Shown piece after piece: positions 4,192 through 33,316 of a stretch of 33,316 bases of DNA. The notes beneath the pieces are model-generated. The model ran no database searches. It worked only from the letters and a program-made list of their open reading frames with translations, and was not told where the DNA came from. The position numbers and the translations under genes are program-made. Position 1 is the first letter of the stretch. Each line of letters starts with the position of its first letter. The stretch comes from Ignavibacteriota bacterium (lineage in GTDB: Bacteria; Bacteroidota; Ignavibacteria; UBA10030; UBA6906): assembly GCA_003158475.1 (NCBI GenBank), contig PMJR01000131.1:1-33316 (forward strand), read 5' to 3'.

Positions 4192-4272
4192 GTGGCTCAC
4201 TTCATTCCGGAACCCAAGATATTCTCAAACGGGAAGCATGGGGGAACGCTTTCCCTCGAAAAATCAGTTGTT

Positions 4273-4300
4273 AAAAAAATGCCCCGGATCCGAACGGATC
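4273..4300 (-). terminator. Intrinsic terminator downstream of the DinB-like gene
   Basis: On the minus strand GATCC-GTTC-GGATC (plus 4287-4300) forms a short hairpin, followed by CGGGGCA and seven Ts (plus 4273-4279). It lies 70 bases after the DinB stop and separates that unit from the lipoprotein/DUF5916 unit. The stem is short (5 bp), which keeps confidence moderate. Confidence 0.5.
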
Positions 4301-4369
4301 AGAGGCCTGTGTCAATGGAACGGGAACCAGAGTAATGTACTGAACTGCGGGGCGACGTGCAACAGCACG

Positions 4370-4858: not shown

Positions 4859-4912
4859 AACTGCACCTCCGGTTGGTGATGATGGATGGAGTGATGCGTG
4901 TGAGAGTACAGA

Positions 4913-5320
4913 CTACTTCCGTTTCCCCTTCTTTGCCAGGTATCTCCTCCACGGAGCCCAGTAATTGGTCGTCCAGCCCGTCTTGATGCCGGGATAATGC
5001 TCGTCAGGGATGTTCGCATGCACCATCGTCACTTTCCCCCCCCTCCCGTCCTTCTCGAAAAAGAATGTGAGAACCGAGTCCGCCGACTCGGGTTTCCAGT
5101 CATCTGCCCGCCAGGTCTGCACGAAAACGCGATTGCGGACCACTCCGAGCGTTGTCCCTCTCAGGCTCCCGCCCCACGCTTCGCAGATGCCTCCGACCTT
5201 GCTGCTGATGACTGCATGTCCACCTGTGGCCGCCGTGTGCTGACGCGAATTAACGTAGAGTGCGAACAGGACTTCGGGGTGGGCGTTGAATCTGACCGTT
5301 TGAACAATGGTTTTTGACAT
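4913..5320 (-). CDS. SRPBCC / AHSA1-like START-domain protein
   Basis: The 135-residue protein matches the AHSA1-type SRPBCC fold: an opening strand with 'V-x-F-N-A-H-P-E-V-L-F-A-L-Y', a central 'GG.CEAWGGSLRGTTL' strand-turn, 'VFVQTWRADDWKPESADSVLTFFFEKDGRGGKVTMVHANIPDEH' and a terminal helix 'GIKTGWTTNYWAPWRRYL'. These small cytosolic proteins have a hydrophobic pocket that holds lipid-like or aromatic ligands; the ligand is not predictable. GGAGG sits seven bases ahead of the ATG. The gene lies between a hybrid kinase gene (35 bases upstream) and a DinB gene (54 bases downstream), all in one direction, so the three could form an operon. Confidence 0.87.
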   Translation of the reverse strand: MSKTIVQTVRFNAHPEVLFALYVNSRQHTAATGGHAVISSKVGGICEAWGGSLRGTTLGVVRNRVFVQTWRADDWKPESADSVLTFFFEKDGRGGKVTMVHANIPDEHYPGIKTGWTTNYWAPWRRYLAKKGKRK

Positions 5321-5355
5321 ACGAGAACCTCCATGGAATTTAACGATATAGAGAT

Positions 5356-7716: not shown

Positions 7717-8055
7717 GTCAATTCTCCATCCACGAATCGAACTCGATCACAACGCGCACTCCAATCTGCTCCAGAGGTTACAATCTTCATGCCATGCAAG
7801 ATCCGTCATAATTTGGCGAATTTCCATAAGGTCAAGCAGAATAGGGGATACTTTCGTCAGTTTTGAAAATCCGTCCCAAGGGGAGAGAAAGAGTTCTGCC
7901 CGCGGGTAGGTGGAGAGGCAACTGCTTGTTTCCGAGGGAATTGGAGCCATTGCCGGTTTTCCGGATTCTGCTTTGCTTTCCATTGTGAAGGCGATTGTCT
8001 ACATTCAGTAGCACATACACTCGACCCGGATCATGTGTGAGCTGGGATAGAGATG
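7717..8055. other. Divergent intergenic region between two kinase transcription units
   Basis: About 340 bases separate the minus-strand hybrid kinase from the leader hairpin of the plus-strand kinase operon, so promoters for both directions should lie here. I found no sequence close to a TTGACA-N17-TATAAT pair on either strand. A 78-codon minus-strand frame (7747-7983) has no ribosome binding site and looks like chance. Confidence 0.5.
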
Positions 8056-8105
8056 GAGAACCTCCGGATTCGCATAGCGATGATGGAGGTTTTTGTGTTT
8101 GGAGG
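8056..8105 (+). promoter_or_regulatory. Leader hairpin with T-run and alternative pairing to the ribosome binding site
   Basis: AACCTCC (8059-8065) pairs perfectly with GGAGGTT (8085-8091); inside it TCGC/GCGA with an ATA loop extends the stem across a small internal loop. Five Ts follow immediately (8090-8094), then GTGTTT, giving an intrinsic-terminator shape. The real ribosome binding site GGAGG (8101-8105) lies just after it, four bases before the ATG at 8110. The CCTCC arm (8061-8065) can pair with either GGAGG copy, so terminator formation and ribosome-site masking would be alternatives. A start at 8053 in the same frame would make this coding; that start has only a weak ribosome site. 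Confidence 0.45.
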
Positions 8106-8109
8106 AAAC

Positions 8110-11100
8110 ATGAAAACACGCGAAGATCTTCGTCGCCGGATATTTTCTCTGCTCCCTCAAGCCTTCAGCGCAGCTGCGGCAGGGCTCGGCTTTACGGTTC
8201 TTTTCGGATGGCTTTCCGGTCACCCCCTGCTCGCCAGCTTCGGCGCGAATCTCATACCAACGGCTCCCAGCACAGCGCTGCTATGTTTCCTGCTCGGACT
8301 TTCCATCCTGTTCCGCAGTCGATTTCCGTTGAACAGAGGGGTAGCTTTCATAGGCACGGCACTCGGTTCCCTCAGTGCGGTAGCGACGTTTCTGCTCTTT
8401 TACGCTTCTTCCGCGCACATCTACTCCTCCGTCGAGCTCCTCGGAATATCCATCACCGGAACATTCAACGGTGTACCGATCGGACACATGTCTCCTCTGT
8501 CGGCCCTCATTTGCGCTCTCACTGCACTTGCGTTCCTGGGATCGCTTTCTTCGTCGCCGGAGCGGCGAGGGCGTGCATTTGCAGCTTTCGTGTTGGCCTG
8601 CATCCTGACACTGATGTCAACCGCTCTCGTACTGGCCTACCTGCTTGGAACACCTCTGATGTACGGAGGGGCTTTCATTCCGCCGGCCCTGCCGACTTCC
8701 CTTTGCTCTTTGTTCCTCGCGCTGGCGGTACTCTCACTTACCAACCTGCAGGTATGGCCATCGAGTACGACGGAGGAAACGGGAGTTGCCCGCTCCCTGT
8801 ATGCTTCTATTCTTATTTTCGTTCTCCTCTCCTCCGGTATCCTTGCCACCGGGTACGTCTATCATCGCCAATTTGAACGTCAGCACAGGGCAGAAATCGA
8901 AGACGTGCTCGCATCCGTCTCGGATTTAAAGGTGAGCGAACTCAAGCACTGGCGGGAAGAGCGTTTGGGAGGCGCCGCCCAATTCTACGGTAACACTACT
9001 TTTTCCAGGCTGGCCGAAAGTTCCCTTCGCATTCCTGAGTCCGTCGATGCCCGAATTGGCATTCTGACCTGGTTCCGGCAGGCGCAAGAAGGGGATCAGT
9101 ATGATCGCATCTCTCTCTACGATCCCGCGTTGGTAGAGCGGTTTTCGTATCCGAACGGATTTGAACCGGTTGATTCGTTGTTTCTGCGGCATGCAGCCAC
9201 GGCGCTCCGTTCTCGCGAAATTGTGTTCCAGGATTTCTACAGGGACGAACATACCGATCGTGTATTTCTGAACATCCTCATCCCGATTTGTGACATCCGG
9301 AACAGCAACCGGGTGATCGGGATGGTTGCAATGCGCATAGATCCAGACACGTACGTCTATCCTCTCCTCATCAAGTGGCCGACTCCAAGTCGAACCGCGG
9401 AGACCCTGCTTATCCGGAAGGATGGCAACAATGCGTTGTTTCTGAATCGGCTGAAGTTCAACAACGATGCAGCCCTGAAACTGCGAATCCCGCTGGATAG
9501 CACAGACGTTCCCGCGGTAAAGGCAGCTTTGGGACAAACCGGGATTATTGAAGGCAGAGACTATCGCGGAATGCCTGTAATAGCTGACCTGCATGCCGTT
9601 CCGGACTCACCGTGGTTCCTGGTCGCCCGGATGGATCTCTCAGAGGTGTACGAACCCCTCACCGAAAGATTATGGATAACCGTCTTCATCATGTGTGGAC
9701 TGCTCATCGGAGCGGGTACCGGCGTGGGATTGTTGTGGAGGGAGCAAAAAGCCCGATTCTACAGGGATCACTACCTGGCCGGACGTGAGCGCGCCTGGCT
9801 GCATGACGTGATTGCAAGGAGTCTCAATGAAGTCTATGTCTTTGATCCCGGGACGCTGCAGTTCAAGTTTGCAAATGCAGGCGCACGGCACAATATCGGT
9901 TACACCACGCAGGAGTTGGCAGGTCTCACTGCGCTCGATATCAAGCCGGAGTACACGGAACAATCCTTTCGGGCCGCCGTGCAGCCGCTCCTCATCGGCC
10001 GGGAAATGGTCCTGGTGTTCGAGACCGTACACCGGCGGAAAGATGGAACCCGGTACCCGGTGGAATCCCATCTCCAACTCGTCGAAAGGCCTGAGGGGGC
10101 CGTTATCCTGGCTATCGTCAACGACATCACAGAGCGGAAGAGGACGGAGGAAGCCAAGCGTGAAAGCGAAACACTTCTTCAAGATATCATTGATAATTCG
10201 ACATCGTTAATCTACATCGTTGATACTGACGGGCGGTTCGTCCTCGTCAACCGGAAGGCCGAATCCGTCCTCGGCATATCCCGGGAGCAGCTCATCGGGA
10301 GGACGCGCGATGCTTTTTTGCCGCAGGAAATAGCCGCTGCACACAGGCAGAATGACGCGGAAGTGCTTCGCGCGGGCACCTCAATGACGTTTGAAGAGGA
10401 GAACGTGGAGCCGGATGGAAGGCATACGTACCTCACCGTCAAATTCCCGCTCACGAATATCGAAAAGAGCGGGTACGCCGTTTGCGGCATGTCCACCGAC
10501 ATCACCGAGCGCAAGCGGATGGAAGAGACGCTCAAAGCGAGCGAACTCAGGTTCCGTCTGGCGGCGGGAAGTCTGACGGATGTCATTTATGAGTGGGACC
10601 TCAAGGAGAAGGTGGATTGGTACGGCGATATTGACGGACTGATGGGGTATCCGCCGGGCGAATTCCCCAGGACACTGGCGGGATGGGCACAATTGCTCCA
10701 CCCGGATGACAGCCAACTCGTATTCGCCGCCGTTGACAGACAATTGAAGGCCTCTGCGCCATACGATCTCGAGTACCGCATCAGGAGGAAAGATGGTGCA
10801 TGGTGCTGGTGGTCGGCGCGAGGTTCTGTGCGGCGAGATGAGAACGGTGAACCGTTCGGGTGGATCGGCTCCATTACGGACATTACCGAGCGGAAGCGCG
10901 GGGAGGAGGAGTCAGTATTTCTGGCTTCAATCATTCAGTCGTCAGACGACGCTATATTTGGCAAGACGCCGGAGGGAATTATTCTCAGTTGGAACGCGGG
11001 CGCGGAAAACATGTATGGCTATTCGGCCGAAGAAATACTAGGCCGGAACGTCGCGATACTTTCTCCACCCGATCGACCCCATGAGATCGCGCACCTTCTC

Positions 11101-12546
11101 GAAAGGGTCGGCCGCGACGAGACTATTCGTCAGTTTGAGACCGTACGAATGACAAAAGATCGGAAGATGATTGACGTTTCGCTTACGCTCTCTCCCATAC
11201 GGGACGCCGGTGGAAGAGTGACCGGCGTATCGAGCATCACGCGCGACATCACCCGTCGCAAGGAAGCCGAGAATGAGTTGCGCCGATATGTAAATCAGCT
11301 CTCGGTAATCAACCGGCTTGACCGTGTCATTTCGTCGACGTTTGACATCGAGGAAGTGTACGACACGGTTGTTTCTGAAATGCGGCATCTGCTCCGGTTC
11401 GACCGCACATCGCTGATGACTCTCAACGAAGACGGCACGGAGTGGCAGATCGTTAGACAGTGGACAAGCGGAGAAGCGGCATTCGTTCCAAAGACGTGGC
11501 GAAAGGTCGAGAATTCCGTGGTCGAATGGCTGGTTCGCAACAAGCGGACACTCGTGGAAAGCCACATTGGCGAGAAGGGGACGTGGTCCGAAACCGAGCT
11601 TCTGAAAAAGGAAGGGATCGCCTCAGGGGTGCGGGTACCGCTCATCGTGCGGGGAAAGGTCATCGGCGCCATGACGCTCGCAAGCAAGAATCCGGACGCA
11701 TACAAAAAGGGGGACGTCGAGATCCTGGAGTCGCTTGCAGACCAGGTCGGCATTTCGATCCATAACGCCGCGATGTACAACAAGGTCGAAGAGCACGCTG
11801 CGACGCTGGAGAAAAGGGTCGCAGAACGAACAGTGCAGCTTGAAGCCGCGAACAAGGAGCTTGAAGCCTTTTCCTATTCCGTTTCACACGATCTGAGAGC
11901 GCCGCTCCGATCAATTGACGGTTTCTCCCAGATCATCCTGGAGGAGTATTCGAACAAATTTGACGCCGAGGGGAAAAGGCTCCTGAATGTCATCCGTTCG
12001 AACACGCAGAAAATGGGGGAGCTTATTACCGATCTGCTCGACCTCGCGCGCGTAGCACGAGACGAGATGAAGACGGTGCGCATCGACATGTCCACGCTCG
12101 CGAATTCCATATTCCATGAGATCGCTTCACCCGAAGCCCAGAAACGGTATTCACTCTCCATCGGGGCGCTTCCTGAGGCATATGGCGACCCTTCGCTCAT
12201 GAGACAGGTGTGGCGGAACTTGATTTCCAATGCCATCAAATTTACAGCACCGAAGGATGTGCGCCGGATTGAAATCGGCGGCCGCTCTGAGGAGGGGAAA
12301 ACAATCTATTTCATCAGGGACTCCGGGGTCGGCTTTGATCCCCAATACGCACATAAGCTCTTTGGAGTGTTCCAAAGACTGCACAAAACAGAGGAATTCG
12401 AAGGTACCGGGGTCGGACTGGCCATCGTTCAGCGAATTGTTCACCGCCATGGGGGGGAAGTCTGGGCAGAAGGAGTGGTCGGAGAAGGCGCAACTTTCTA
12501 TTTTTCACTCACCTCAAAGGAGGGTGACCTTGAACAGCAACGCTGA
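8110..12546 (+). CDS. Large membrane sensor histidine kinase: multi-TM, CACHE-like, 4 PAS, GAF, HisKA-HATPase
   Basis: The 1478-residue protein starts at the ATG at 8110 with GGAGG four bases upstream. An N-terminal block of about seven hydrophobic segments (about 14-250) resembles a MASE-type membrane sensor. About 251-521 looks like an extracytoplasmic dCACHE-like domain ([17 protein letters not shown]..., [29 protein letters not shown]), closed by a membrane helix at about 522-543. Then come PAS domains at about 560-675, 686-800, 811-927 and 934-1052, a GAF domain (about 1070-1220), a short coiled coil, HisKA with His1260 ([12 protein letters not shown]) and HATPase_c (Asn1374, DSGVGFD from 1404, GTGVGLAI from 1432). 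It lacks a receiver; the overlapping downstream response regulator is the obvious partner, as in phytochrome/Rcp1-type pairs. Ligand unknown. Confidence 0.93.
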
Positions 12547-12976
12547 GGTGGAAATTCTGCTCGTTGAAGACAACCCCAATGATGCCGAACTGGCTCTCAG
12601 GGCGCTGAAAAAGAACAACCTTGCCAACAACGTTGTCGTGGTCGGCGACGGCGAGGAGGCGCTTGATTTTGTCTTTGCCCGCGGACAGTACGCACACCGA
12701 AAGATTGAAAACGGTCCAAGGGTGATTTTGCTTGACTTAAAGCTTCCAAAAGTGGACGGGCTCGAAGTCTTGAGGCTCATCAAAGCCGACCCGCGAACAA
12801 AGGCCATTCCTGTCATCGTCCTGACATCGTCGAAGGAAGAAAAGGATATCGTTGAGAGCTACAAACTGGGAGTGAACAGCTACATTCTGAAACCGGTTGA
12901 TTTCGACAAGTTTGTCGAGGCCGTCAAAGATATCGGATACTACTGGTTGCTCTTGAATCAATCAGCGAAAAACTAG
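12530..12976 (+). CDS. Single-domain response regulator, Rcp1-like
   Basis: The 148-residue protein is a stand-alone receiver: acidic pocket Glu13/Asp14 ([12 protein letters not shown]), phospho-acceptor Asp69 ([13 protein letters not shown]), Thr99 (VIVLTSS) and Lys121 (YILKPVDF). The extended loop between beta2 and beta3 ([12 protein letters not shown]) and the 'WLLLNQ' tail are typical of Rcp1-type regulators that partner bacteriophytochrome-like kinases. I chose TTG at 12530 because AAAGGAGG ends six bases upstream and the protein then begins like its family; a GTG at 12524 overlaps that ribosome site. The gene overlaps the kinase's last 17 bases, so translation is probably coupled. No DNA-binding or enzymatic output exists, so it likely relays phosphate, possibly to the next kinase. 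Confidence 0.92.
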
Positions 12977-12993
12977 AATACCCGGGCGAGACA

Positions 12994-15654
12994 ATGGCAC
13001 ACGCCACTCCGTTCCGCATTTTGTTCGTCGAAGACCTTCCCTCCGATGCAGAACTGGCAGAGAGGGAGATTCGCAAGAGCGGACTCGATTTCACTCTTCA
13101 AAGAGTGGAGACGAAAGACGCATTCCTGCTGGCGCTGAAGGAATTTCAACCCGATGTGATCGTTTCGGACTACAAGATGCCGGAGTTTGATGGAATGCAG
13201 GCACTGAAACTTTCACTCAAACGGGATTCGGCGGTTCCATTCATCGTTCTTACCGGATCGATGAACGAAGAGACGGCTGTCGAGTGTATGAAGGCCGGAG
13301 CGACAAATTACGTCATCAAGGAACACATTGCACGACTCCCGTTTGCGATCAGGGAAGCCCTGGAGCAGAAGGAGGTGCGCATAGCGAGGGATGAAGCCGA
13401 GCGGGCTTTGAAGGAGAGCGAGGAGCGCCTCAGAGTACTCTTCGAGTCCGCGCCCGACGGTGTTTTTCTCACGGATCTTGCCGGGACATTTACTGATGGG
13501 AACAGGACAGCGGAAGAGATCGTCGGTTACAAGAGAGAGGAACTCGTCGGAAAGAGCATATTCTCCCTGAATCTCATCTCCAGAGCCGACATCGGGAAAG
13601 CCACCGCTCTTCTTGCAAAGAATGCGCTCGGTAAGGTCTATGGTCCGGTTGAGTTCACTCTGTGCCGAAAGGACGGCAGCCGGATTTCCGTGGAAGTACG
13701 GACGTACCCTGTGACAATTGGGGGGAAAACTCAAGTACTGGGGATCGCCCGGGATATTACCGAGCGCAAGAAGGCGGAGCGGGAGCTCCGACTCATGGCA
13801 CAAACGGTCGAGTCCGCACGAGACTGTATATCCATTGCCGATCTTCAGAACAGACTCCTCTTTGTCAATGACGCATTTCGTACTACCTATGGATATACCA
13901 CGGAAGAGCTTCTGGGAAAAGATGTCTCCATTCTGAGATCGCCCGACTCACCGACGACCGTCACAGATCCAATACTCCACGAAACTCTGGGCGGGGGATG
14001 GCACGGCGAGATTCTGAACCGCCGGAAGGACGGGAGTGAATTCCCTGTGGAACTCTGGACCTCAGTAGTGAAAGATGGGTCGGGGAATCCGGTGGCGCTG
14101 GTCGGAGTCGCGCGGAGCATTACTGAACGCAAGGCGGCGGAGGAACACCTCAGGCAGAGTGAGGAACAATTTCGGCTGATAGCGGAAAATGTCGCAGACA
14201 TGATCGCGGTGATGGACCTGGAAGGCAGAAGGATCTATAACAGCCCCGCGTATAAGAATATTCTGGGGGACCCGGAGTCATTGAAGGGGACGGAGGGACT
14301 TCTCGAGATCCATCCGGAGGACAGGGAGAGGGTAAATCAGGTGTTTCTGGAAGCCGTCAGAACGGGTGTCGGGCAACGGATTGAATACCGGCTCGTGCGC
14401 CCAGATGGTTCCGTATGCAACATCGACTCGAAGGGAAGCGTGATCAGAGACAGCGACGGCAAGGTTTTTCGCGTCATCGTGGTCTCCCGTGACGTGACCG
14501 AGGAGAAGAGGCTTGCGGCGCAATTCCTGCGGGCGCAGCGGATGGAAAGCATCGGCACACTCGCCGGCGGTATTGCCCACGATCTCAACAACGTCCTTGC
14601 GCCGATTATGATGGCGATCGAGGTCCTTCGGAGCAAAATTGCCGATCCGGGCGGGCGGAACATCCTCAATACGATCGAGACATCGGCAAAGCGGGGCGCA
14701 GACATTGTCAGGCAAGTACTGGCATTCGGTCGGGGAGTCGAAGGCGACCGCATTCTCGTTCAAATCAAACATGTCGTCAACGAAGTCGCCAAGATTGCCT
14801 GTGAGACATTTCCAAAATCGATCGACATCAAAACAGATGTTCCACGGGATCTCTGGACGGTCTCCGCCGACCCGACACAGATGCACCAGGTACTCCTGAA
14901 CATGCTGGTGAACGCGCGGGATGCCATGCCCAAAGGCGGGATTCTTACAATATCGGCTGAGAACATTACAGTTGATGAAACTTACTCCCGTATGCATCTT
15001 GAGGCGAAACCAGGGGCGTACGTCTGCCTGGCGATCGCTGACTCGGGAACGGGAATTCCCGCAGATATCCGGGAAAAAATATTCGAACCCTTCTTCACGA
15101 CAAAGGAAATCGGGATGGGGACCGGTCTTGGCCTTTCCACCACGCTTGCCATCGTCAGGAGCCACAAAGGGTTCATCAATGTGTACAGCGAAGTGGGGAA
15201 AGGGACGACGTTCAGGATATACATTCCTGCGACAGGAACGGGTTCAGGTGCAGCGGCGGCAGGTGAGGAAGCGGACCTCCCGACGGGAAACGGCGAGCTG
15301 ATCCTCATCATCGATGATGAAGCTGCAATCCGGGAGATAACAAAGGAAACTCTGCAGGCTCATGGCTACAAGGCCATGACCGCCAGCAACGGCGCCGAAG
15401 GAGTCGCGGTCTACGCCGAGAATAAGAACGATATCAACGTCGTAATCACGGACATCATGATGCCTGTGATGGATGGGACGGCCGCCATTCTCGCGCTGAA
15501 AAGGATACGTCCGGATGTGAAAATCATAGCGGCCAGCGGATTGACGACGAAGGGGCAGGTCACAAACCCGTCAGACCCCAACGTGCAGGCATTTCTGACA
15601 AAGCCGTACACAGCGGAGAAATTGCTCATAGCTCTGGCAGCGGCGCTGCGATGA
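12994..15654 (+). CDS. Hybrid histidine kinase: REC-PAS3-HisKA-HATPase-REC
   Basis: The 886-residue cytosolic protein opens with a receiver (Glu13/Asp14, phospho-acceptor Asp59 in SDYKMPEFDG, Thr87, Lys109), followed by PAS domains at about 142-260, 266-372 and 386-505, an NtrB-like phosphoacceptor helix with His529 (GIAHDLNNVLAP), an ATPase domain (Asn640, DSGTGIP from 683, FEPFFTTK from 697, GMGTGLGLS from 707) and a second receiver (Asp774/Asp775, phospho-acceptor Asp820, Lys870). Receivers at both ends suit it to receive a signal from the upstream kinase and relay it onward. It starts 17 bases after the response regulator stop; the ribosome site is weak, suggesting coupling. From about residue 512 to its end it is strongly similar to the minus-strand kinase at 5356-7716. 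Confidence 0.93.
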   Translation: MAHATPFRILFVEDLPSDAELAEREIRKSGLDFTLQRVETKDAFLLALKEFQPDVIVSDYKMPEFDGMQALKLSLKRDSAVPFIVLTGSMNEETAVECMKAGATNYVIKEHIARLPFAIREALEQKEVRIARDEAERALKESEERLRVLFESAPDGVFLTDLAGTFTDGNRTAEEIVGYKREELVGKSIFSLNLISRADIGKATALLAKNALGKVYGPVEFTLCRKDGSRISVEVRTYPVTIGGKTQVLGIARDITERKKAERELRLMAQTVESARDCISIADLQNRLLFVNDAFRTTYGYTTEELLGKDVSILRSPDSPTTVTDPILHETLGGGWHGEILNRRKDGSEFPVELWTSVVKDGSGNPVALVGVARSITERKAAEEHLRQSEEQFRLIAENVADMIAVMDLEGRRIYNSPAYKNILGDPESLKGTEGLLEIHPEDRERVNQVFLEAVRTGVGQRIEYRLVRPDGSVCNIDSKGSVIRDSDGKVFRVIVVSRDVTEEKRLAAQFLRAQRMESIGTLAGGIAHDLNNVLAPIMMAIEVLRSKIADPGGRNILNTIETSAKRGADIVRQVLAFGRGVEGDRILVQIKHVVNEVAKIACETFPKSIDIKTDVPRDLWTVSADPTQMHQVLLNMLVNARDAMPKGGILTISAENITVDETYSRMHLEAKPGAYVCLAIADSGTGIPADIREKIFEPFFTTKEIGMGTGLGLSTTLAIVRSHKGFINVYSEVGKGTTFRIYIPATGTGSGAAAAGEEADLPTGNGELILIIDDEAAIREITKETLQAHGYKAMTASNGAEGVAVYAENKNDINVVITDIMMPVMDGTAAILALKRIRPDVKIIAASGLTTKGQVTNPSDPNVQAFLTKPYTAEKLLIALAAALR

Positions 15655-22129: not shown

Positions 22130-23290
22130 ATGGACCGTGCAGCGTTCGGCTCCATGATCGCGCTCTTCCTCCTCTGGCCCTCTTTTCCTGCGTGCAAGGG
22201 GGGGACGAACGACAATCCCGCCGGCACGCTGGAGCTCGAATCAGCGTTTCCTCGCCTGACATTCGTCCGCCCTCTCGCCCTCGAGTCCCCTCCCGACAGC
22301 ACACACCGGCTGTTCGTCGTCGAGCAAGCGGGCCGGATATTTGTCTTCCCGAACGACAGGAATGTGAAACAGGCAAAGCTGTTCCTCGACATACGAAAGA
22401 TCGTGTACAGCGAGGGGAACGAGGAGGGATTGCTCGGGCTCGCATTCCATCCGGCGTACAGGACGAACGGATACTTCTATCTGAATTACAACGCTTCCAA
22501 TCCGGTCCGATCCATCATCGTACGCTACCGTGCATCCTCCACCGACCCGGATGCAGCCGATCCCTCGAGCAGACTGGTACTCCTGGAATATGAACAGCCG
22601 TATTCAAATCACAAGGGGGGACAACTCGCGTTCGGGCCGGACGGCTATCTCTACATCGGGACCGGGGATGGCGGATCGGCGGGAGACCCGCACGGGAACG
22701 CCCAGAAGACAACGACGCTGCTCGGAAAGATACTCCGCATCGACGTGAACAATCCGGGCGTAGGAAGGAACTACGGAATACCGGCGGATAACCCGTTCAT
22801 CGGGACCGCTTCGCGCCCGGAAATATTCGCGTTCGGACTCCGCAACCCGTGGAGGTTCAGCTTCGATCCGCCCACCGGCCGGCTGTGGGTGGCAGACGTC
22901 GGCCAGGACGCGATCGAAGAGGTGGATATAGTCGAAAAGGGAAGAAACTACGGATGGAACATCATGGAGGGGACGTCCTGCTTCAAGCCCTCCTCACATT
23001 GCGACACGACCGGCCTTGTCCCCCCCGTCTGGGAATATACGCATGACGTGGGGGTCTGCATCATCGGGGGATACGTGTACCACGGAGCGAGGCGACCTGA
23101 TCTGGAGGGGACGTACATCTGCGCGGACTACGGGAGCGGGCGGATATGGTCGCTCCGGCGCGCCGCCGGCGGGCAGGTTGCCGCGCGCGAGATGGCGTAC
23201 ACGCACCTCCCGATCGTCTCGTTCGGGGTGGACGACACACAGGAACTCTACCTCTGTTCGTTCGAAGGGAAGATCTACCGGTTGAAATGA
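22130..23290 (+). CDS. PQQ-dependent sugar dehydrogenase-like lipoprotein (GSDH family)
   Basis: From the ATG at 22130 the protein has 386 residues, with a short signal ending in a lipobox-like FPAC, so it is probably an envelope lipoprotein. The remainder is a six-bladed propeller of the glucose/sorbosone dehydrogenase family: EEGLLGLAFHPAYRTNGYFYLNY, NHKGGQLAFGPDGYLYIGTGDGGSAGDPHGNAQ, LLGKILRIDV, FGLRNPWRFSFD, LWVADVGQDAIEEV and GRNYGWNIMEG. Members oxidise soluble sugars with PQQ; sequence alone does not prove activity or PQQ supply, and no pqq genes are here. An in-frame ATG at 22010 would put 40 residues before the signal, so I prefer 22130 although its ribosome site (AGG) is weak. The 3' end overlaps the convergent FHA-SLT gene by 16 bases. 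Confidence 0.87.
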   Translation: MDRAAFGSMIALFLLWPSFPACKGGTNDNPAGTLELESAFPRLTFVRPLALESPPDSTHRLFVVEQAGRIFVFPNDRNVKQAKLFLDIRKIVYSEGNEEGLLGLAFHPAYRTNGYFYLNYNASNPVRSIIVRYRASSTDPDAADPSSRLVLLEYEQPYSNHKGGQLAFGPDGYLYIGTGDGGSAGDPHGNAQKTTTLLGKILRIDVNNPGVGRNYGIPADNPFIGTASRPEIFAFGLRNPWRFSFDPPTGRLWVADVGQDAIEEVDIVEKGRNYGWNIMEGTSCFKPSSHCDTTGLVPPVWEYTHDVGVCIIGGYVYHGARRPDLEGTYICADYGSGRIWSLRRAAGGQVAAREMAYTHLPIVSFGVDDTQELYLCSFEGKIYRLK

Positions 23291-24840
23291 TCGTCAGAGG
23301 GAGGAGAGATTCGCCCCCCGGGGAGAACGGTGTCCGCACCGGCGCGGGTCGAGTCGGCACCGCCGGTGCCGAGCGGATTGTCAAAGTCGAACCCAAAGAG
23401 CCGCGGGTTTTCTCCTATGACCGCGGCGGAGACGATGTAGAAGACGTAGTTGTACGTCTCGTCGGGAAGAGTGTTCCGGCCGAGGAGATTCCAGAAATTC
23501 CTCTGTCGGGGGGTCTCCGGCATTGCGCTCAACATTTCGCGAATTCTGTTTTCGTCCCAGTTGTAGCATGCCATGACGAGCAGGCCCGAAGCCTGTGCTT
23601 CCGTGTCGTACAGATCCCTGAGGTAGTGCGCCGCCGCCTGAGTCGATTTCCTGAGGTTGTGCCTTTCATCGTGCGGGTCGGCTCTCCTCAGGTCGATCAG
23701 GGGACCCGTCTGCAGACCGTACTTCCACGCTGTCATCGGAATGAACTGCCACATCCCCTTGGCAATGCCGGACCGGGTTTGGGGGCCGCACTGGGACGTG
23801 TCGAGGCCGCTCTCCTGAAGCGCGAGGTAAAAGAACTGCGGGGGGAGATCATAGGAAAGGAACGTGCTTGAGATCATCGGGGCCAGGTTGTCGCGTTCCG
23901 ACCGCTCGATGGCCTTTATGAACCGGTGCCCTCTCTGCCAGAAGCGGATGTACTCTTTCACCTTCCCGAGAAACCCGGCGGGCATGCTGACGTCGCACTC
24001 CCCGAACCGCCGCGCCACACGGTAAATGAGCCAGTCCTCCGGGGAAAGTTTCTCGCGGGATATGCCGAGCTCATCGAGGAAATCGACGTATTTCGCCTGG
24101 AGCTCCTGTTGTTCCTTTTGCTTCTCCCGGAATTCCTCCCTGAACTTCTCGTCCTTCGTTTTTTCGACTTCGATGCGGAGTTTCGCGAGCTGCAACTCCA
24201 GCGACTTGGTGGCATAGAAGACTTCCGCCGCCGTCGCGTGGAGCTTTTGAAGCTGTTCGATGCGGGCCCGGTAACCGACGATCGCGAGAACCGCGAGGAG
24301 GAGAAGCGACATGACCGCCCCGAGTGCAACCCAGTACCGCACCCTGTAGCGGCGGCGGACAGTCCTGAATGCTTCCCGGATAAGAATAGTCCGGTCGCCG
24401 ACTTTCCCTCCCGTTGACCCCTCGAAGTAACGCCGGATGACCTGTGTCCTTCCGATGCCCGGCTCCGGCCTGTGAGGGGAGAGCTCCCCGGCATGCACTT
24501 CCAGATCGAACACAAGCACCGGTCCCTTGCGCCCGAGACGGACCTCTTTTCCCACCGGAAGGGGGATCTTACCCGTGATCAGCCTTCCCCCGACGAAAAT
24601 ACCGTTCGTACTACCGAGGTCTTCCAGCCACCACTCATCCTGATCCCACGCGACGGAGGCGTGACGGGAGCTCACGTTTTCGTCCGTAAACTGAACGCCG
24701 CATCCGTCAGCGCGACCCAGCGCGAACGCGGATGTAAACGTACGCTGGCGCGTCAGAAGATTCCCCTTCTTGATGCGGAGGTGGACGGGATATGCACCCG
24801 CGGTCGGTACGTCAGCCGGATTCAGATCCGATGGATTCAT
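23275..24840 (-). CDS. FHA domain - TM - coiled coil - lytic transglycosylase fusion
   Basis: From the ATG at 24840 (AGAGGG just upstream) the protein has 521 residues. An FHA phosphothreonine-binding domain spans about 18-115 with Gly42-Arg43, Ser58-Arg59-His60 and STNG (77-80). A basic juxtamembrane stretch leads to one membrane helix (169-190), a coiled coil (about 192-260) and a lytic transglycosylase SLT domain (about 320-480) with catalytic Glu343 in LALQESGLD, AKGMWQFIPMTAWKYGL and AAHYLRDLY. Topology: FHA in the cytoplasm, transglycosylase in the periplasm, where it would cut peptidoglycan to 1,6-anhydromuropeptides. The arrangement suggests wall cutting controlled by Ser/Thr phosphorylation inside. 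A clear promoter at 24932-24960 excludes the longer TTG-started frame beginning at 24960. Confidence 0.9.
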   Translation of the reverse strand: MNPSDLNPADVPTAGAYPVHLRIKKGNLLTRQRTFTSAFALGRADGCGVQFTDENVSSRHASVAWDQDEWWLEDLGSTNGIFVGGRLITGKIPLPVGKEVRLGRKGPVLVFDLEVHAGELSPHRPEPGIGRTQVIRRYFEGSTGGKVGDRTILIREAFRTVRRRYRVRYWVALGAVMSLLLLAVLAIVGYRARIEQLQKLHATAAEVFYATKSLELQLAKLRIEVEKTKDEKFREEFREKQKEQQELQAKYVDFLDELGISREKLSPEDWLIYRVARRFGECDVSMPAGFLGKVKEYIRFWQRGHRFIKAIERSERDNLAPMISSTFLSYDLPPQFFYLALQESGLDTSQCGPQTRSGIAKGMWQFIPMTAWKYGLQTGPLIDLRRADPHDERHNLRKSTQAAAHYLRDLYDTEAQASGLLVMACYNWDENRIREMLSAMPETPRQRNFWNLLGRNTLPDETYNYVFYIVSAAVIGENPRLFGFDFDNPLGTGGADSTRAGADTVLPGGRISPPSDDHFNR

Positions 24841-24931
24841 GCCCTCTGTGGATACAGGGATACAGGAACGCAGGAGCTCGTGGCGCTTCTGGCGACAAAC
24901 GACGACAGGGTTTGTTGCCGATGACTGGGGA

Positions 24932-24960
24932 ATAATAGGGGTTGGCGGGGAGACAGTCAA
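24932..24960 (-). promoter_or_regulatory. Sigma70-like promoter for the FHA-transglycosylase gene
   Basis: On the minus strand: TTGACT (plus 24955-24960), exactly 17 bases, TATTAT (plus 24932-24937). Each hexamer is one mismatch from consensus. Predicted start is near 24925, leaving a leader of about 85 bases before the ATG at 24840. The -35 touches the hairpin at 24961-24981. Confidence 0.6.
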
Positions 24961-26943: not shown

Positions 26944-27050
26944 CGCCGATCGGGAATAGCCCAGAAGGATGAAAGGGGGGTTAACTCCTTACACGGAAGA
27001 AACAGATCAGGCGGGGGAAAGTGAATCGGTGGAAGTGCTGCAGATGAAAG

Positions 27051-27077
27051 CCCCTTCTTCGTATCCACAAAGAGGGG
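27051..27077 (-). terminator. Weak terminator-like hairpin after the ABC remnant
   Basis: CCCCTTCTT (27051-27059) pairs with AAAGAGGGG (27069-27077), with one mismatch and one G-U pair; on the minus strand CTTTC follows. It sits 54 bases past the stop of the ABC ATPase remnant and may be that gene's old terminator. Confidence 0.3.
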
Positions 27078-27130
27078 ACCTTTTGCACCGGGGACGTTCC
27101 GCTATGGAAATGGCGTATGTGCAGGATACA

Positions 27131-27382
27131 TCAATTCGATGCAGTGACGCCTTTTTCCTGGGAAAGGGCCATCATCTTGTCCTCGATACCGTACACGTAC
27201 TGCACGAACCGGGGATCTCTCTTCACCTGGCGTGTTTTGTCAAAGGGGAGATCGATCGCAATGTGATGGACAATTCTGCCCGGATTTGCCTGCATGACAT
27301 AGATGTCCGTCCCCAAGTACACTGCTTCAGGAATATCATGCGTTACGAAAACGATGGTTGTCGCGGTAGTGATGTGCCACAG
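27131..27382 (-). pseudogene. C-terminal remnant of an ABC importer ATPase (NrtD/SsuB/TauB type)
   Basis: The minus-strand frame that ends at 27131 encodes LWHITTATTIVFVTHDIPEA, then VYLGTDIYVMQANPGRIV and KRDPRFVQYVYGIEDKM to a stop. This is the H-loop (VTHD) and C-terminal part of nitrate/sulfonate/taurine-type ATPases. Walker A, signature and Walker B are missing, and upstream of about 27382 the frame changes to unrelated residues, so roughly the first two thirds of the gene are gone. No start or ribosome site is present. The reading frame of the remnant is intact, which suggests recent decay. No matching permease or binding protein is in the window. Confidence 0.75.
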
Positions 27383-27414
27383 CCTGAAGGTCCAAGCAAA
27401 CAGATGAACTGGCC

Positions 27415-27636
27415 CTAACGGAGCTGCAACAATCGTTTTGTCTGCACGAAATCGCCTGTCTGCAATCGGCAGAAGTGCACGCCGCTCGCAAGATTGGTTG
27501 CGTCGAAGCGAACCTCATGGTTGCCCGCTTCCTGCTCTCCCTGAACGAGCGTGGCGACTTGCTGGCCGAGTGTATTGAAGAGAGTCAATACAGTTGGCGA
27601 AGTGACCCGCCGGAACGCTTGTCTGTATTTGTTGCT
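27415..27636 (-). pseudogene. C-terminal remnant of a T9SS-secreted protein
   Basis: The minus-strand frame ending in TAG at 27415 reads [38 protein letters not shown] and VHFCRLQTGDFVQTKRLLQL: the second half of a T9SS type A sorting domain. The NYPNPFNP strand and all of the cargo protein are missing; the frame is closed by a stop at 27637-27639. It shares 76 of 79 bases with the sorting-domain coding part of the haloperoxidase gene 1.8 kb away. The usual YFYRL is HFCRL here, a sign of decay. It lies about 30 bases from the ABC ATPase remnant, on the same strand. Confidence 0.8.
27501..27579. repeat. 79-base repeat shared with 29312-29390
   Basis: Comparing base by base, 27501-27579 and 29312-29390 differ at only three positions, in the same orientation. 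Both encode the '[26 protein letters not shown]' part of a T9SS sorting domain (minus strand). Identity drops sharply outside this core. Confidence 0.85.
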
Positions 27637-27801: not shown

Positions 27802-28986
27802 CTAATCGTCATCCCTCCTCACGAAATAATCTCTCCGATTATCTACAGCAATCCGCAGAATCTCACCAAATCCAGGGATGGGCGGTCCGAACCCCTTGTT
27901 CGAGACGTAGAGATCGCCGTCCGGACCCATGGTCATCGCCGTGGGAAGGAACAATCCCGTCGCGATCGTATCCCGTTTGCTCCCCTGATTCAGACGCAAT
28001 ACGGTGCCGGTTCCGGGAGTGGGAAATGGATTGCCGGTCGTGTTCTCAAGGACGTACAGTCTCCCTTCCCGATCGAAGGCAAGTCCGAGAATCGTTGTAA
28101 ATCCCGTCGCCCACACGTCGACCTGTCCACTGCGGGAAATCCGGTAGACGCTCGAGCTCCCTTCTACGATCGGGAATGTCCGAAGGTTGCCCACATAGAA
28201 ATACCCGTCGCGGTAGACACATGCTGTCGGGACAATGTGCCCCTGGCTCGCCGAAATGTCGCTGACACGCGAGACCCTGTGGTTCTCGGGATTGATCTTG
28301 TCAAGCTCGCCGTGATTGGGCTCGACGGCAAAGAGATCATCGCCCACGTGAACCATACTGTACCAGGTCCCATCAGGCTCAAAATCCAACGGGTTCGGAT
28401 GAAGCACCGGATGTGTCATCTGGAAATGACTCAGGTCGGCAACTATGGACCATTTTCCGCCATGAGACACACGAAGGACGGCATTCGGTATACCTGGCAC
28501 ACCATGAGAACAGCCGGCGCCCGCAAGGATTGCATACAGAGTGTTTCCGATGAATTCCACATCGGCCACCCCGCTCACAAGGCTACCGCTGCCGGGATTG
28601 GTTTGACTTGAAGGAAGATTCTCCGCGACGGTTGATCGCTGACCGGAGCGATTGACTCTTGAGATGCGGCCGGTCATTCCGCCCAGATAAGGTCCGACAT
28701 CAGGAACGGTATCACATTGTCCTACGGTCGAATTTGTCCCGCCCAGCCCCCCTTCCGCAACATACAGGTATCCATCAGGGCCGAATTTGAGACCGCGCGG
28801 GTTGTCGAATCCGGTTGCAAAGACCGTGACAGCGGCGGATTTCTTCATCCCTTCAATGGCGGCCGCAGGCAAAGGGACGGTTGCGCCCTTTGTATCCAGG
28901 GGCGCCGTTGGCTCCTTTTGACACGATATGAAGAAGAGAGCCGACAGAATTGCTGCCGTTACAGAGAAAACATAGAAGCGTTTCAT
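27802..28986 (-). CDS. ScyD/ScyE-like beta-propeller lipoprotein
   Basis: The 394-residue protein begins with a signal peptide ending in a lipobox (FISC, Cys22). The rest (about 52-394) is a beta-propeller with repeated 'LKFGPDGYLYVAEGG', 'ADVEFIGNTLYAILAGAGCSHG', 'GLAFDREGRLYVLEN' and 'TAMTMGPDGDLYVSNKGFG' units. 'ATGFDNPRGL.FGPDG.LYVAE.G.GG' is the hallmark of the ScyD/ScyE family, named after scytonemin-cluster proteins but widespread outside cyanobacteria, where its role is unknown. Expected at the inner or outer membrane facing the periplasm. AGAGAGG lies five bases before the ATG. It follows the haloperoxidase gene by 237 bases on the same strand and may be co-transcribed with it or have its own promoter. 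Confidence 0.88.
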   Translation of the reverse strand: MKRFYVFSVTAAILSALFFISCQKEPTAPLDTKGATVPLPAAAIEGMKKSAAVTVFATGFDNPRGLKFGPDGYLYVAEGGLGGTNSTVGQCDTVPDVGPYLGGMTGRISRVNRSGQRSTVAENLPSSQTNPGSGSLVSGVADVEFIGNTLYAILAGAGCSHGVPGIPNAVLRVSHGGKWSIVADLSHFQMTHPVLHPNPLDFEPDGTWYSMVHVGDDLFAVEPNHGELDKINPENHRVSRVSDISASQGHIVPTACVYRDGYFYVGNLRTFPIVEGSSSVYRISRSGQVDVWATGFTTILGLAFDREGRLYVLENTTGNPFPTPGTGTVLRLNQGSKRDTIATGLFLPTAMTMGPDGDLYVSNKGFGPPIPGFGEILRIAVDNRRDYFVRRDDD

Positions 28987-29223: not shown

Positions 29224-31749
29224 TTATCGGACCAGGACGAGTTTCTTCGCTTCCACAAAGGCTCCGGCTTGAAGGCGATAGAAGTAAACGCCTGAGGAGA
29301 GATCGCTGCCGTCGAATCGAACCTCATGATTGCCCGCTTCCTGCTCTCCCTGAACGAGCGTGGCGACTTGCTGGCCGAGTGTGTTGAAGACAGACAGTGT
29401 CACGTGTGCCCTGGTTGGCAGACCATAACGTATTGTCGTTGAGGGATTGAAGGGATTGGGATAGTTTTGCTCAAGCCGGAAACCCTCGACAACACTCTTC
29501 GACTGTCCCACAGACAAGACGAGCAGGTTGTTGTCCCATTTGTAAATGGAGTCGTTTACACCAGCGCTCCATCCAACATGAGCAGAGGCAAACGCAGCTT
29601 GACCATGTGGCAGGTTATCGACCTGCGTCCAGCTCAACCCGTCGTCGGTAGAGTATGCAGAACCCGGGAGAGTCTGCGTGCGGCCAGCGTTGAAGTCGGA
29701 GGTAATCACATATGTGCTCGTTCCAGGAACGTACGCGATATGGAATAATGATGGCGTTGCGAGAATTGAGGCTGCAGCAAGCGGCGTCCATGTTACGCCG
29801 CCATCAGTTGTCCTGGAGATTCGGTTGAACAGTCCTCCAATGGCGGGGAACGGCGTGCAACCTAAACCATTCAGACTATCCCTGAACGCAAGGAACGGTC
29901 CAAGACTTGCCGTTCCAAGCACATCGCGAGCCACCGTCCATGTCATCCCCCGATCAGTTGACCTGTATACCGAGTTGAATTCTGTTCCAAACCAGACGTT
30001 GTTGCCGGCACTTGCGATCTCCCCTGCAATGTCTCCGGAGACTGGAGCGGGAATGCTTGCGGACGGCACCCTGGTCCACTGCGATCCGCCATTTGTGGTA
30101 GTGTATATCTCCCAGTAACCGCCGTTTATACTGCCCGAACACACGCCATTGTTCGCATCGAAGAAGTATATCGCAAGAGGCTGCCCGTTAGGTAAGGGGA
30201 AGGCCGTCGGTTGCGACGTCCATGTCATACCGCCATCGGTTGTTTTGAAAACTCCACCTCCTGTTGAGATCCCGGGATTATGTAATGCGGCAAACGCTGT
30301 GTTGGCATCAAGTGCCGAGATGCTGGCGCCAAAAAGCCCGGTCGCGCCTCCAACCACCGAAGATGTCCAGGTTGTTCCACCGTTCGTTGTTCGAACGAAT
30401 TGGGCGGTCAAGGTTTTGATTCCCCAACAGACATTCTCATTCACGGCCGAAAACAGTACGTCCGGATTCCCCGATACGGGCAAGCCCGGTGCGCGCTGGA
30501 GAGCCCACGGTGATGCCCCCAGGCGTATGAAACGGCGTTGCGCCACCCATGCCGCAACATTGCGTCCGATGGCAATCCCATCCTCGCCGGAGGAACGGAA
30601 GTGCATGCCGCCGTAGACACGCGCGTTCATCGATTCCGCGGTGATCTGATTGATGTTTGTGAAAGAATGTTGCGTGCCGGTGACTGCGCTCGTGAGCGTG
30701 ACAGGGACGTTTGCAGTGCCGAAGAACTTTTCCAGAGCAGAGGCAAACGCGCCGAGTACAGAGCCGTGAGCAGCAACATATTCCGGATGAGTCGGTGTCG
30801 TTACCAGCGGCAGCCAGGAAGTGTCCTGCACAGTAAGCGGGTTGCCGTCGGTATCCGCCTCGCGGATTGCGGTGACCGGTCGCCAGTTGTTGTACAGGTA
30901 CTTGGACTCGAAGCCGGTAATCAAGGCATCGCCGATCGTGACGTAGAGCTGCGCAAAGAGCCGGGCATTGTCGGCAAGAGACATTCCGCGCGAGGTCGCA
31001 AAGAGCCTGATATTCCTTGCCATCTGGACGTTCGGGTTCTCGGTATAAAACCTCGCGATTTCTCTTTGCTGGGGAGTGGTATATGAGCTGTCGCGCGAGC
31101 CATAGCGTTTCACCTCGTTGAAGTCCCTCGTATAGACGTCGCTCGTGAATGGCGGCGGGCCCGGTGCACGGAACTGCGACGGCGAGGTAAGAGAAAACGG
31201 CCTGAGTTGCCCGAGCCACGGGTTGACCGGCTGGTACTGTGCCGCCCCGGGGGGCGTGGGTTGATATACACCCGGTCCCGGGGGGAGCCAGGTGTACGTG
31301 ACGATTGCAGTCCTCCCATCCCCTGCACGGTACGCAAGCCACCGTGTTGCAACGGTATCACCGATCGCAACACCTCGTGTCTTCGTGCTATCGTCGGGCA
31401 GGAGAGCGAGCGCCGCCGCGTAGACAGAGTCGATATACGGCTGCTGTGAAGCATAGAACGTCAGAAGCACCCGCCGTGCTGCCGCAGCAGTTGCCGCTTC
31501 TTCGGATGCCCACGGCGCGGCATTCGGCGGCGCCACCGCAAAAACCGAGTATCGACCGTCGATAGCATTGACTGCATCGTAAATAGCGATGTGCATGTTT
31601 GCCATATCGGTCATAGGGTCCCTCGCCAGAGTCGGCACCCTGAGCATGACTGTGATGGCCGTTGCATTCCAGTCGATCACCCCGTCCGCGCTGGACCGGC
31701 TGACGGACAATATCAATATCCCTACCAGGGACAAAAGCATGCGCTTCAT
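29224..31749 (-). CDS. Secreted vanadium-dependent haloperoxidase-like protein with Asp-box repeats and T9SS domain
   Basis: From the ATG at 31749 (GGAGG five bases upstream) the protein has 841 residues with a signal peptide (about 1-21). Residues 25-410 form a vanadium haloperoxidase/PAP2 domain: Lys283-x6-Arg290-Pro291, PEYVAAHGS with His328, and Arg377-x5-His383, matching the vanadate ligands and acid-base residues of the family. Residues 430-740 hold six Asp-box motifs (S/T-x-D/N-x-G-x-x-W at 454, 503, 551, 597, 647, 700), about 50 apart, forming a probable propeller. Residues 760-841 are a T9SS sorting domain. The enzyme would oxidise halide with peroxide outside the cell; phosphatase activity is the alternative for this fold. 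A start at 31761 would cover the ribosome site. The gene lies downstream of a two-component pair. Confidence 0.9.
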
Positions 31750-31838
31750 AAACACCTCCATAGAAACAACGATTGAAATGGTGAACTGGATTCTGGGGAC
31801 TAATGTCGAGAAGGATCGGAAAAGAGACTATCGCCGGT

Positions 31839-31898
31839 TTGGAGTATTCTGCACCTGGCGAAGGGCTAAATCAGCGGGAGTCTCACCCATTTGGAGTA
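31839..31898. promoter_or_regulatory. Two TACTCCAA half-sites upstream of the haloperoxidase gene
   Basis: TTGGAGTA occurs at 31839-31846 and 31891-31898 (TACTCCAA on the minus strand), same orientation, 52 bases apart (about five helical turns), 90-149 bases upstream of the haloperoxidase ATG. The same 8-mer makes both arms of the palindrome at 32595-32610. Likely binding sites of the neighbouring NarL/LuxR-type regulator, by inference. Confidence 0.45.
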
Positions 31899-31930
31899 GA
31901 GAGATGACCTGGGAGGAAAAGGAGGGGGCG

Positions 31931-32557
31931 CTACTTGTGGAGATACTTCAGCGTGGCTTCAGTGCGTGATCTCACGTGGAGTTTCTTATAGATATTTCTG
32001 AGGTGGGTGCGGACGGTTTCGGAGCTGAGGAAGAACTTCTCTGCAATCTCCTTATCCTGAAATCCCTTGGCAACATACGAAAGAATCTCGGACTCCCGCT
32101 GCGTCAGGTTCTCTGTTTCCCGGGACGACTGCCCCATCTGCTGAAAGGCCTGCACGACTTTCCGTGCAATCCTGTCCGACATGGGAGAGCCGCCATTGTG
32201 CAAGTCGCTGATGCCATCCATCAACTCGGACGGAGGTGTCTTCTTCAGGACGTAGCCGCTCGCTCCCGCAACAATGGACTTGAACACGTTGTCATCGTCT
32301 TCATAGATTGTGAGCATCATTATCTGTAGTTCGGGGAGCAGCCTCTTCAATTCCCGTACGCACTCGATGCCTGACATCCCCGGGAGCTGGATGTCCATGA
32401 GCACGACATCCGGCTTCTGAGCCGGAAGGTACTTCAAGGCGTTCTCCGCTGTCGGGTAGGTGGCAACGCACTGAAATCCGGTCGACCCGTTGATCAAAAC
32501 GGAGAGTCCCTCACGAATCTGGTCGTTGTCTTCTACTATCGAGACCTTGATTGGCAT
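31931..32557 (-). CDS. NarL/LuxR-family response regulator
   Basis: The 208-residue protein has a receiver (1-120) with Glu9/Asp10, phospho-acceptor Asp55 (VVLMDIQLPGMSG), Thr83 (MLTIYED) and Lys104/Lys105, and a LuxR-type helix-turn-helix at about 148-205 (LTQRESEILSYVAKGFQDKEIAEKFFLSSETVRTHLRNIYKKLHV). It would be phosphorylated by the kinase encoded just upstream (stop 32626) and bind DNA as a dimer. The ATG at 32557 has no ribosome binding site, but a promoter at 32566-32594 would start transcription within a few bases of the ATG, so the mRNA may be leaderless. A palindrome next to that promoter suggests autoregulation. The haloperoxidase gene follows 181 bases downstream on the same strand. 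Confidence 0.95.
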   Translation of the reverse strand: MPIKVSIVEDNDQIREGLSVLINGSTGFQCVATYPTAENALKYLPAQKPDVVLMDIQLPGMSGIECVRELKRLLPELQIMMLTIYEDDDNVFKSIVAGASGYVLKKTPPSELMDGISDLHNGGSPMSDRIARKVVQAFQQMGQSSRETENLTQRESEILSYVAKGFQDKEIAEKFFLSSETVRTHLRNIYKKLHVRSRTEATLKYLHK

Positions 32558-32565
32558 ATATGTTC

Positions 32566-32594
32566 AGGATACCACTATCTGACAGCCAGGTCAA
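32566..32594 (-). promoter_or_regulatory. Sigma70-like promoter of the response regulator gene
   Basis: On the minus strand: TTGACC (plus 32589-32594), 17 bases, TATCCT (plus 32566-32571). Only eight bases separate the -10 from the ATG, so the predicted start is at or a few bases before the start codon, fitting a leaderless transcript and the lack of a ribosome site. Confidence 0.55.
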
Positions 32595-32610
32595 TACTCC
32601 AATTGGAGTA
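32595..32610. promoter_or_regulatory. Perfect 16-bp palindrome abutting the -35 box (operator)
   Basis: TACTCCAATTGGAGTA is its own reverse complement. It touches the -35 hexamer of the regulator promoter and is centred about 43-45 bases upstream of the predicted start, close to the usual class II activator position (-41.5). Its half-site recurs twice upstream of the haloperoxidase gene. The likely binder is the LuxR-type regulator itself. Confidence 0.6.
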
Positions 32611-32625
32611 AAAGCCACTCAGGGC

Positions 32626-33316
32626 TTACACCGGGGGGACGCCAACCGGAACGGAAATGCATACCCTGGTGCCACCACCCCGATCGGAATCAAGAGTGAA
32701 CGTGCCTCCGATGTTCTCGATCCGCTTTCTCATACCAGGCACGCCATTCCCGAAACGGGAGATCTGATCAATCGGAAATCCCATTCCGTTGTCTTCCACT
32801 GAAACCTCCACAATCCCCCCGCGCAAACCACACCTCACCGTGGTTTCCGTGGCACCTGAGTGTTTGACAACATTATGCAACGCCTCTTTGACAACAAGGA
32901 AGATGTGACGCCGAACCTCAGCCGACAAGGAGAAATCCGCAATCGCCTCAGGTGATTCAAACCGGCATCGTATCGCTGTTGACTTGAGGAATTGCATGGC
33001 GTAGTGGTGAAGATAGGCGACAAGATCGTCGAGGTGATCGTTCTTTGGATTGATCGTCCAAATGATCTCACTTATGCTGTCCACCACTTCCCTTGACCGA
33101 TCCGCGATCTTGCGGATATGCGAACCGGCTACGTCCGACTCGCCTCCCATCTCCTTTTGTGCCAGCTCGCTGAGAATCGCAATCTCGGTCAGGCTCGCCC
33201 CAACCTCATCATGCATGTCCTGCGAAATGCGGGACCGCTCGCGCTCCAACGCCCGCTCCTGCACCAAGAGTTCGATTCTTCTTTTCATCTTTCGTATTTC
33301 AATATACCGAACTGAT
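32626..33316 (-). CDS. Sensor histidine kinase, NarX/HisKA_3 type (C-terminal part; runs off the window)
   Basis: The frame is open to the right edge, so the sensor part lies outside the window; an internal ATG at 33288 has no ribosome site. Counting from that Met, the dimerisation/phosphotransfer helix has His26 in SRISQDMHDEVGASL (HisKA_3), followed by a HATPase_c domain with VVKEALHNVVKHSGA, EDNGMGFP and GNGVPGMRKRI. The preceding 'IEIRKMKRRIELLVQERALERERSRI' is typical of kinases whose N-terminus is a two-component-regulator propeller with a Y_Y_Y domain, but that part cannot be seen. It would autophosphorylate and hand phosphate to the response regulator whose ATG lies 68 bases downstream. 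Confidence 0.9.
   Translation of the reverse strand, partial: SVRYIEIRKMKRRIELLVQERALERERSRISQDMHDEVGASLTEIAILSELAQKEMGGESDVAGSHIRKIADRSREVVDSISEIIWTINPKNDHLDDLVAYLHHYAMQFLKSTAIRCRFESPEAIADFSLSAEVRRHIFLVVKEALHNVVKHSGATETTVRCGLRGGIVEVSVEDNGMGFPIDQISRFGNGVPGMRKRIENIGGTFTLDSDRGGGTRVCISVPVGVPPV

Follow-up and report, generated by a model that had tools for sequence, protein, structure and literature searches.

The window examined here is one entire contig of an Ignavibacteriota bacterium (G000:C145, 33,316 bp), and its subject is a two-component gene pair next to a gene for a secreted haloperoxidase-family protein. Four genes lie on the minus strand, in the following order from the contig end inward: the C-terminal part of a sensor histidine kinase with HisKA_3 and HATPase_c domains (32626..33316, truncated at the contig end), a NarL/LuxR-type response regulator with a Response_reg receiver and a GerE helix-turn-helix (31931..32557), a secreted vanadium-haloperoxidase-family protein (29224..31749) and a ScyD/ScyE-family lipoprotein (27802..28986). 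By their Pfam matches, the adjoining kinase and regulator form a NarL/LuxR-type pair, and the lipoprotein belongs to ScyD/ScyE by NCBIfam NF033206 (E 1.5e-70, 238 bits versus a curated cut-off of 80). These domain matches agree with the original prediction, which had described the four proteins in this way, the ScyD/ScyE gene lying outside the interval it had named (29224 to 33316).

The haloperoxidase gene starts with an ATG at 31749 that is preceded by GGAGG. Its product (P0001) carries a haloperoxidase domain at about residues 20–410, a propeller-like YCF48/BNR segment at about 450–720 and a type IX secretion system (T9SS) tail at 767–842 of the scanned open reading frame. Pfam returned Por_Secre_tail (5e-10), PSII_BNR and a weak PAP2 match under the Pfam cut-off (8e-4), and the NCBIfam T9SS sorting domain (5e-11) identified a C-terminal type A sorting domain, so that export by the type IX system is predicted. 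The best sequence match among solved structures was the vanadium iodoperoxidase of Zobellia (PDB 4cit, E 6.6e-25). A structure model of the whole protein, of high confidence over most of residues 21–410, gave 4cit and 4usz as best fold matches (E about 1e-15), and NapH3, a homologue with a rearrangement in its entry title, was also close. The propeller segment was modelled with low confidence (predicted local distance difference test, pLDDT, below 50 at 412–758) and was not interpreted.

The matches in sequence to 4cit and in fold to 4cit and 4usz make the family assignment firm, the Zobellia galactanivorans iodoperoxidase being the closest solved relative in both respects. Lys282, Arg289, His327, Arg376 and His382 are retained in the alignment with it, and these residues are what we take to be the vanadate site. 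The window protein differs in its additional propeller-like segment and in having Ala-Ala instead of Ser-Gly before the His; because Ala-Ala-His thus replaces the Ser-Gly-His motif, it is called a haloperoxidase-family protein here and not a proven haloperoxidase. The motif spot is variable in this enzyme branch and reads CAH in 17, SGH in 10, AAH in four, SAH in three and something else in four rows of a 38-row alignment. Since this spot varies and the vanadate-site residues are retained, enzyme activity is likely. The protein might have halogenating activity and disrupt quorum signals.

Half-sites and promoters around the regulator gene

The sequence TTGGAGTA occurs four times in the window, with 0.35 copies expected, and none of 100 shuffles reached four. 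All four copies are confined to the two gaps flanking the regulator gene, two before the regulator and two before the haloperoxidase, and the shared half-sites to which the original prediction had pointed are therefore real. The heptamer at these sites is TACTCCA. Before the regulator gene, a perfect 16-bp palindrome, TACTCCAATTGGAGTA (32595..32610, minus strand), consists of two inverted heptamers separated by 2 bp (7-2-7) and is the predicted site of a regulator dimer. It directly abuts the -35 box of the regulator promoter, TTGACC-17-TATCCT (32566..32594, minus strand). A consensus promoter scan of the window gave three matches, no more than shuffled sequence, which is why only the match abutting the palindrome was used. 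The 14-mer core of the palindrome has a single exact occurrence in the 3.75 Mb of the own genome, and the 16-mer is found exactly in two of 98 genomes of the order and, if one mismatch is allowed, in six.

Upstream of the haloperoxidase gene, a distal (31891..31898) and a proximal (31839..31846) copy of the half-site TACTCCAA lie 52 bp apart on the minus strand, and both are conserved in a genome of another genus (G016). They precede a presumed core promoter, TAGTCT-17-GACATT (31802..31830, minus strand), and the aligned place in G016 reads TTGTCC-17-TACATT. Paired copies of TACTCCAA at a distance of 30–60 bp exist in a single place in the own genome, namely ahead of the haloperoxidase gene. 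No half-site copy was found in the 237-bp gap upstream of the ScyD/ScyE gene.

This arrangement resembles the NarX/NarL (NarQ/NarP) system of Escherichia coli in its GerE regulator, its HisKA_3 kinase, its 7-2-7 heptamers and a single site lying 31–32 bp before the -10 box. In the available parts of PMC9314961 and PMC4549865, NarL sites of E. coli are given as inverted heptamers with a 2-bp gap; TACCCCTAAAGGGGTA appears there as an engineered NarL site (PMC4549865), and one 7-2-7 site positioned 32 bp ahead of the -10 box is described as sufficient for induction (PMC9314961).

From these features, the locus is probably a self-contained signalling-output module, in which the kinase-regulator pair would activate itself and the adjacent exported product, the haloperoxidase being the product of this locus. 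A propeller-type membrane kinase would sense a cue outside the cell and phosphorylate the NarL-type regulator. A regulator dimer would then bind the palindrome touching its own -35 box and activate its own gene (positive autoregulation), and binding to the TACTCCA half-sites in front of the haloperoxidase gene would switch on the enzyme. The sensor type is suggested by relatives of the kinase. The G016 kinase, 84% identical over 226 aa, extends upstream into a segment that looks Y_Y_Y-like by eye, where the window kinase is truncated, and all four scanned full-length paralogous kinases carry Reg_prop propeller repeats and Y_Y_Y; the window kinase would accordingly be of the same membrane-bound propeller type.

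Promoter design and site co-variation at related loci

If the proposal holds, related bacteria would possess a family of kinase-regulator pairs, each with a diverged recognition sequence common to the promoter of the regulator and that of an adjacent exported protein. Relatives of the regulator from the own genome and seven others gave 49 loci, divided into a first set of 27 and a held-out set of 22; they represent 48 genes, as L169 and L173 resolve to the same gene. The promoter design considered was [16-bp inverted repeat]-TTGNNN-N16-18-TANNNT. A 16-bp repeat with at least 5/7 arm matches and an immediate TTG was found at most 110 bp upstream of the regulator in 14 of the 27 loci of the first set (shuffled control: mean 0.6, maximum 3 in 500 rounds), in 7/22 held-out loci and in none of 11 distant regulators. 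The full design with a -10 box lies upstream of the regulator in 16/49 loci. With 4/7 arms allowed, it is also present within 350 bp after the regulator in 21/49 loci (10/27 of the first and 11/22 of the held-out set), whereas the controls gave 0 and 0 in reversed sequences and 0 in regulator coding sequence. As background, 15 sites (at least 5/7) were counted in 163 kb of lineage contigs, mostly at these loci, and 14 in 1.04 Mb of contigs from other lineages.

Judged by eye from the printed N-termini, 20 of the 21 genes that such a promoter precedes look exported. One locus (L036, genome G012, 3802–9881) has one regulator followed by two consecutive genes for T9SS proteins, each with a matching copy of the site (TCCCCCTAAAGGGTAA), and at L035 a T9SS gene bears a near-copy of the site of its regulator. 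Since the promoter design recurs at paralogous regulator loci, mostly ahead of genes for exported proteins, the window locus appears to belong to a lineage-wide set of kinase-regulator-secreted-protein modules.

The position of the site is compatible with activation or repression, as it touches the -35 box. A regulator that represses the haloperoxidase gene, its own gene or both, with the site blocking polymerase until a signal arrives, would have a precedent in NarL, which is described in the available part of PMC4549865 as repressing frdA from a 7-2-7 site. Against this, the palindrome stops just before the -35 box and leaves the start site uncovered, and the family sites stand upstream of TTG in a fixed register like that of a NarL-induced promoter; the search pattern demands this register, but reversed controls contained none. 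Repression is thus quite improbable, and activation is kept as part of the proposed module.

The site sequence differs among paralogues and tends to agree within a locus. In genome G004, TACCTCATTTTCGGTA at the regulator and TACCTCAAATTCGGTA at a ScyD gene both touch TTG and match at 14/16 positions, the ScyD promoter reading TACCTCAAATTCGGTA-TTGCCC-17-TACATT. This co-variation was noticed by eye in the first set before testing, and 14 of the 27 rows were kept, in 10 groups, by hand choice: L019 was admitted for its perfect palindrome although TTG is missing there, L137 was excluded as a remote and dissimilar match, and rows were left out (L022, L129, L145 and L146 among them) if their best site did not combine 16 bp, 5/7 arms and TTG. 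In these 10 groups, the regulator sites resembled those of their own neighbouring gene more than those of other neighbours: the degree to which exact half-sites are shared within loci was reached by 2 of 200,000 permutations (35 without the window), and full-site similarity within loci by 39 (61 without the window).

Base 2 of the heptamer varies with the amino acid that precedes the His of the recognition helix, Thr going with A in 24/26 half-sites and Asn with G in 6/6. Ser in the context Arg-Ser-His goes with C in 7/8 half-sites; two regulators with Gln-Ser-His and one with Lys-Ser-Tyr go with A. As Thr needs several changes on the receiver-domain tree, the Thr regulators are not a single clade. 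The link was spotted before it was counted and is exploratory. A more far-reaching version of the proposal, in which the modules of an expanded, insulated kinase-regulator set are each positively autoregulated and wired to an adjacent exported protein via a private 7-2-7 site with a readable protein-DNA code, the haloperoxidase being cargo by cassette exchange, can be put forward only tentatively and is somewhat more doubtful than probable.

Gene order in related genomes

Haloperoxidase relatives were found in 4/21 genomes of the family, the own genome included. G016 is the sole other genome with a haloperoxidase beside this regulator; it keeps the kinase-regulator-haloperoxidase order, all four half-sites are retained, the haloperoxidase pair again being 52 bp apart, and no ScyD gene was found behind its haloperoxidase. 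Identity to G016 is 97.5% over the C-terminal 40 aa of the regulator, which include the recognition helix, and 76% for the haloperoxidase. ScyD-type genes are present in three of the 98 order genomes (own, G010 and G004), each downstream of a kinase-regulator pair of this regulator family; in G010 and G004, ScyD is directly next to the regulator, with no haloperoxidase there. In the contig scan, a single-protein query gave no matches; an alignment query gave matches.

The kinase-regulator-haloperoxidase-ScyD order, whose conservation had been put up for checking, is therefore unique to this genome, yet two overlapping three-gene orders recur, as G016 is without ScyD and G010 and G004 are without the haloperoxidase. 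A conserved four-gene operon is rejected on these gene orders. The proposed link between regulator and enzyme gained support from the recurrence of half-sites and three-gene order in a second genus and of the promoter design in paralogous loci; its other part, a signal system dedicated to halogenation, was not upheld, because the same regulator family adjoins many unrelated secreted proteins and the other haloperoxidase loci searched were without this regulator. Among 80 haloperoxidase loci (enzyme domain re-found in 79), none had a close regulator or kinase relative, one weak receiver match being seen at L052. The same was true of another 37 loci from the phylum, eight being repeat fetches of the same places, and G020 and G013 likewise had no close relative of the regulator or the kinase on their haloperoxidase contigs.

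The locus is likely a laterally gained cassette. Neither a haloperoxidase nor a close regulator relative was found in the three congeners searched, and the own genome has one member of this regulator subfamily, other regulators found being at most 34% identical. The window contig may be misbinned; its G+C content is 0.56, and 11 other loci of the own genome span 0.54–0.59. Past ScyD, a T9SS sorting tail remnant (27501..27581, minus strand) has 96% DNA identity to 29310–29390 within the haloperoxidase gene and is, by its sequence, a presumed trace of tail duplication or recombination. At approximately 27000–27400, the translation contains what by eye looks like a broken C-terminus of an ATP-binding cassette transporter ATPase, a further piece of debris near the locus. 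At another locus (L031, G012, 11568–12929), a T9SS propeller protein without an enzyme domain is 45% identical to haloperoxidase residues 412–840 and sits beyond a same-family kinase-regulator pair and a transposase-like open reading frame. T9SS tails and propellers may be points of gene exchange.

Several observations weigh against the locus as a working module. The DNA upstream of the haloperoxidase gene has half-sites only, without a palindrome. Compared with G016, its promoter has lost consensus bases (-35 TTG to TAG, -10 TACATT to GACATT), for which reason it may be weak or decaying, and this is the weakest link. The strict promoter is absent from the 350 bp after the regulator in 28/49 loci, the window's own included, and before the regulator in 33/49. 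In the held-out set, matching was mixed: for five loci the own neighbour held ranks 1, 2, 3, 9 and 13 among 49, and for L169/L173 it came last. Footprint conservation between the window and G016 is modest (P 0.03 and 0.07), and the kinase-regulator-haloperoxidase order is known from two genomes only.

The lost promoter bases also fit a regulator that controls only itself, perhaps with an ancestral ScyD-type target, into whose neighbourhood the haloperoxidase cassette was inserted later, its half-sites decaying without present function. The ScyD neighbours in G010 and G004, the matching ScyD site of G004 and the adjoining debris point the same way. However, both haloperoxidase half-sites have stayed unchanged across two genera while the gap between the regulator and haloperoxidase genes differs at 34/181 bases, and their pairing is singular in the own genome; this explanation is considered unlikely. 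Mere chance or shared ancestry, with no regulatory meaning of half-sites and gene order, would be consistent with the two-genome order and the modest P values, but is very hard to reconcile with half-site enrichment, within-locus co-variation and zero control matches. The self-contained module thus remains the preferred interpretation.

Elsewhere in the window, 5800–6496 and 14520–15216 share an inverted, diverged DNA similarity (71–82%) and are probably paralogous genes, and a single open reading frame at 23275–24960 joins an FHA domain with a lytic transglycosylase (SLT) domain, a combination that seemed unusual.

Related systems and possible meaning

Unlike NarX/NarL, the heptamers here vary among paralogues, the relatives of the kinase carry Reg_prop/Y_Y_Y sensors, and the predicted target is one adjacent gene for a secreted protein and not a respiratory regulon. 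Reg_prop and Y_Y_Y sensors beside genes of extracellular function are familiar from the hybrid two-component systems of Bacteroides, in which kinase and regulator are fused in one chain, whereas here the two are separate proteins, the regulator being of the NarL type, with a site at the promoter of its gene. In the partial accounts available, PorX/PorY-SigP of Porphyromonas gingivalis likewise connects two-component signalling with type IX secretion; there PorXY governs genes of the secretion machinery, whereas the modules here adjoin individual exported cargo genes. The scytonemin cluster of cyanobacteria shares the ScyD/ScyE match and, according to the available part of PMC4870267, also has a putative regulatory response regulator and kinase upstream, and scytonemin is still produced after deletion of scyD (PMC4870267). 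It differs in that the window protein has a lipoprotein signal and no other scytonemin gene was noticed here. In the titles and abstract starts of the open-licence PMC papers listed by the searches, neither a two-component system controlling a haloperoxidase nor this module family was described.

If the interpretation is correct, the haloperoxidase would have a testable regulator, and dozens of signal systems would have an output gene and a DNA address that can be read from sequence, a rarity among two-component systems. The exported outputs might help to find out what is detected by the propeller sensors. Such a family would further be a natural library on how NarL-type regulators shift DNA specificity yet stay mutually insulated, and may serve as a source of orthogonal sensor parts.

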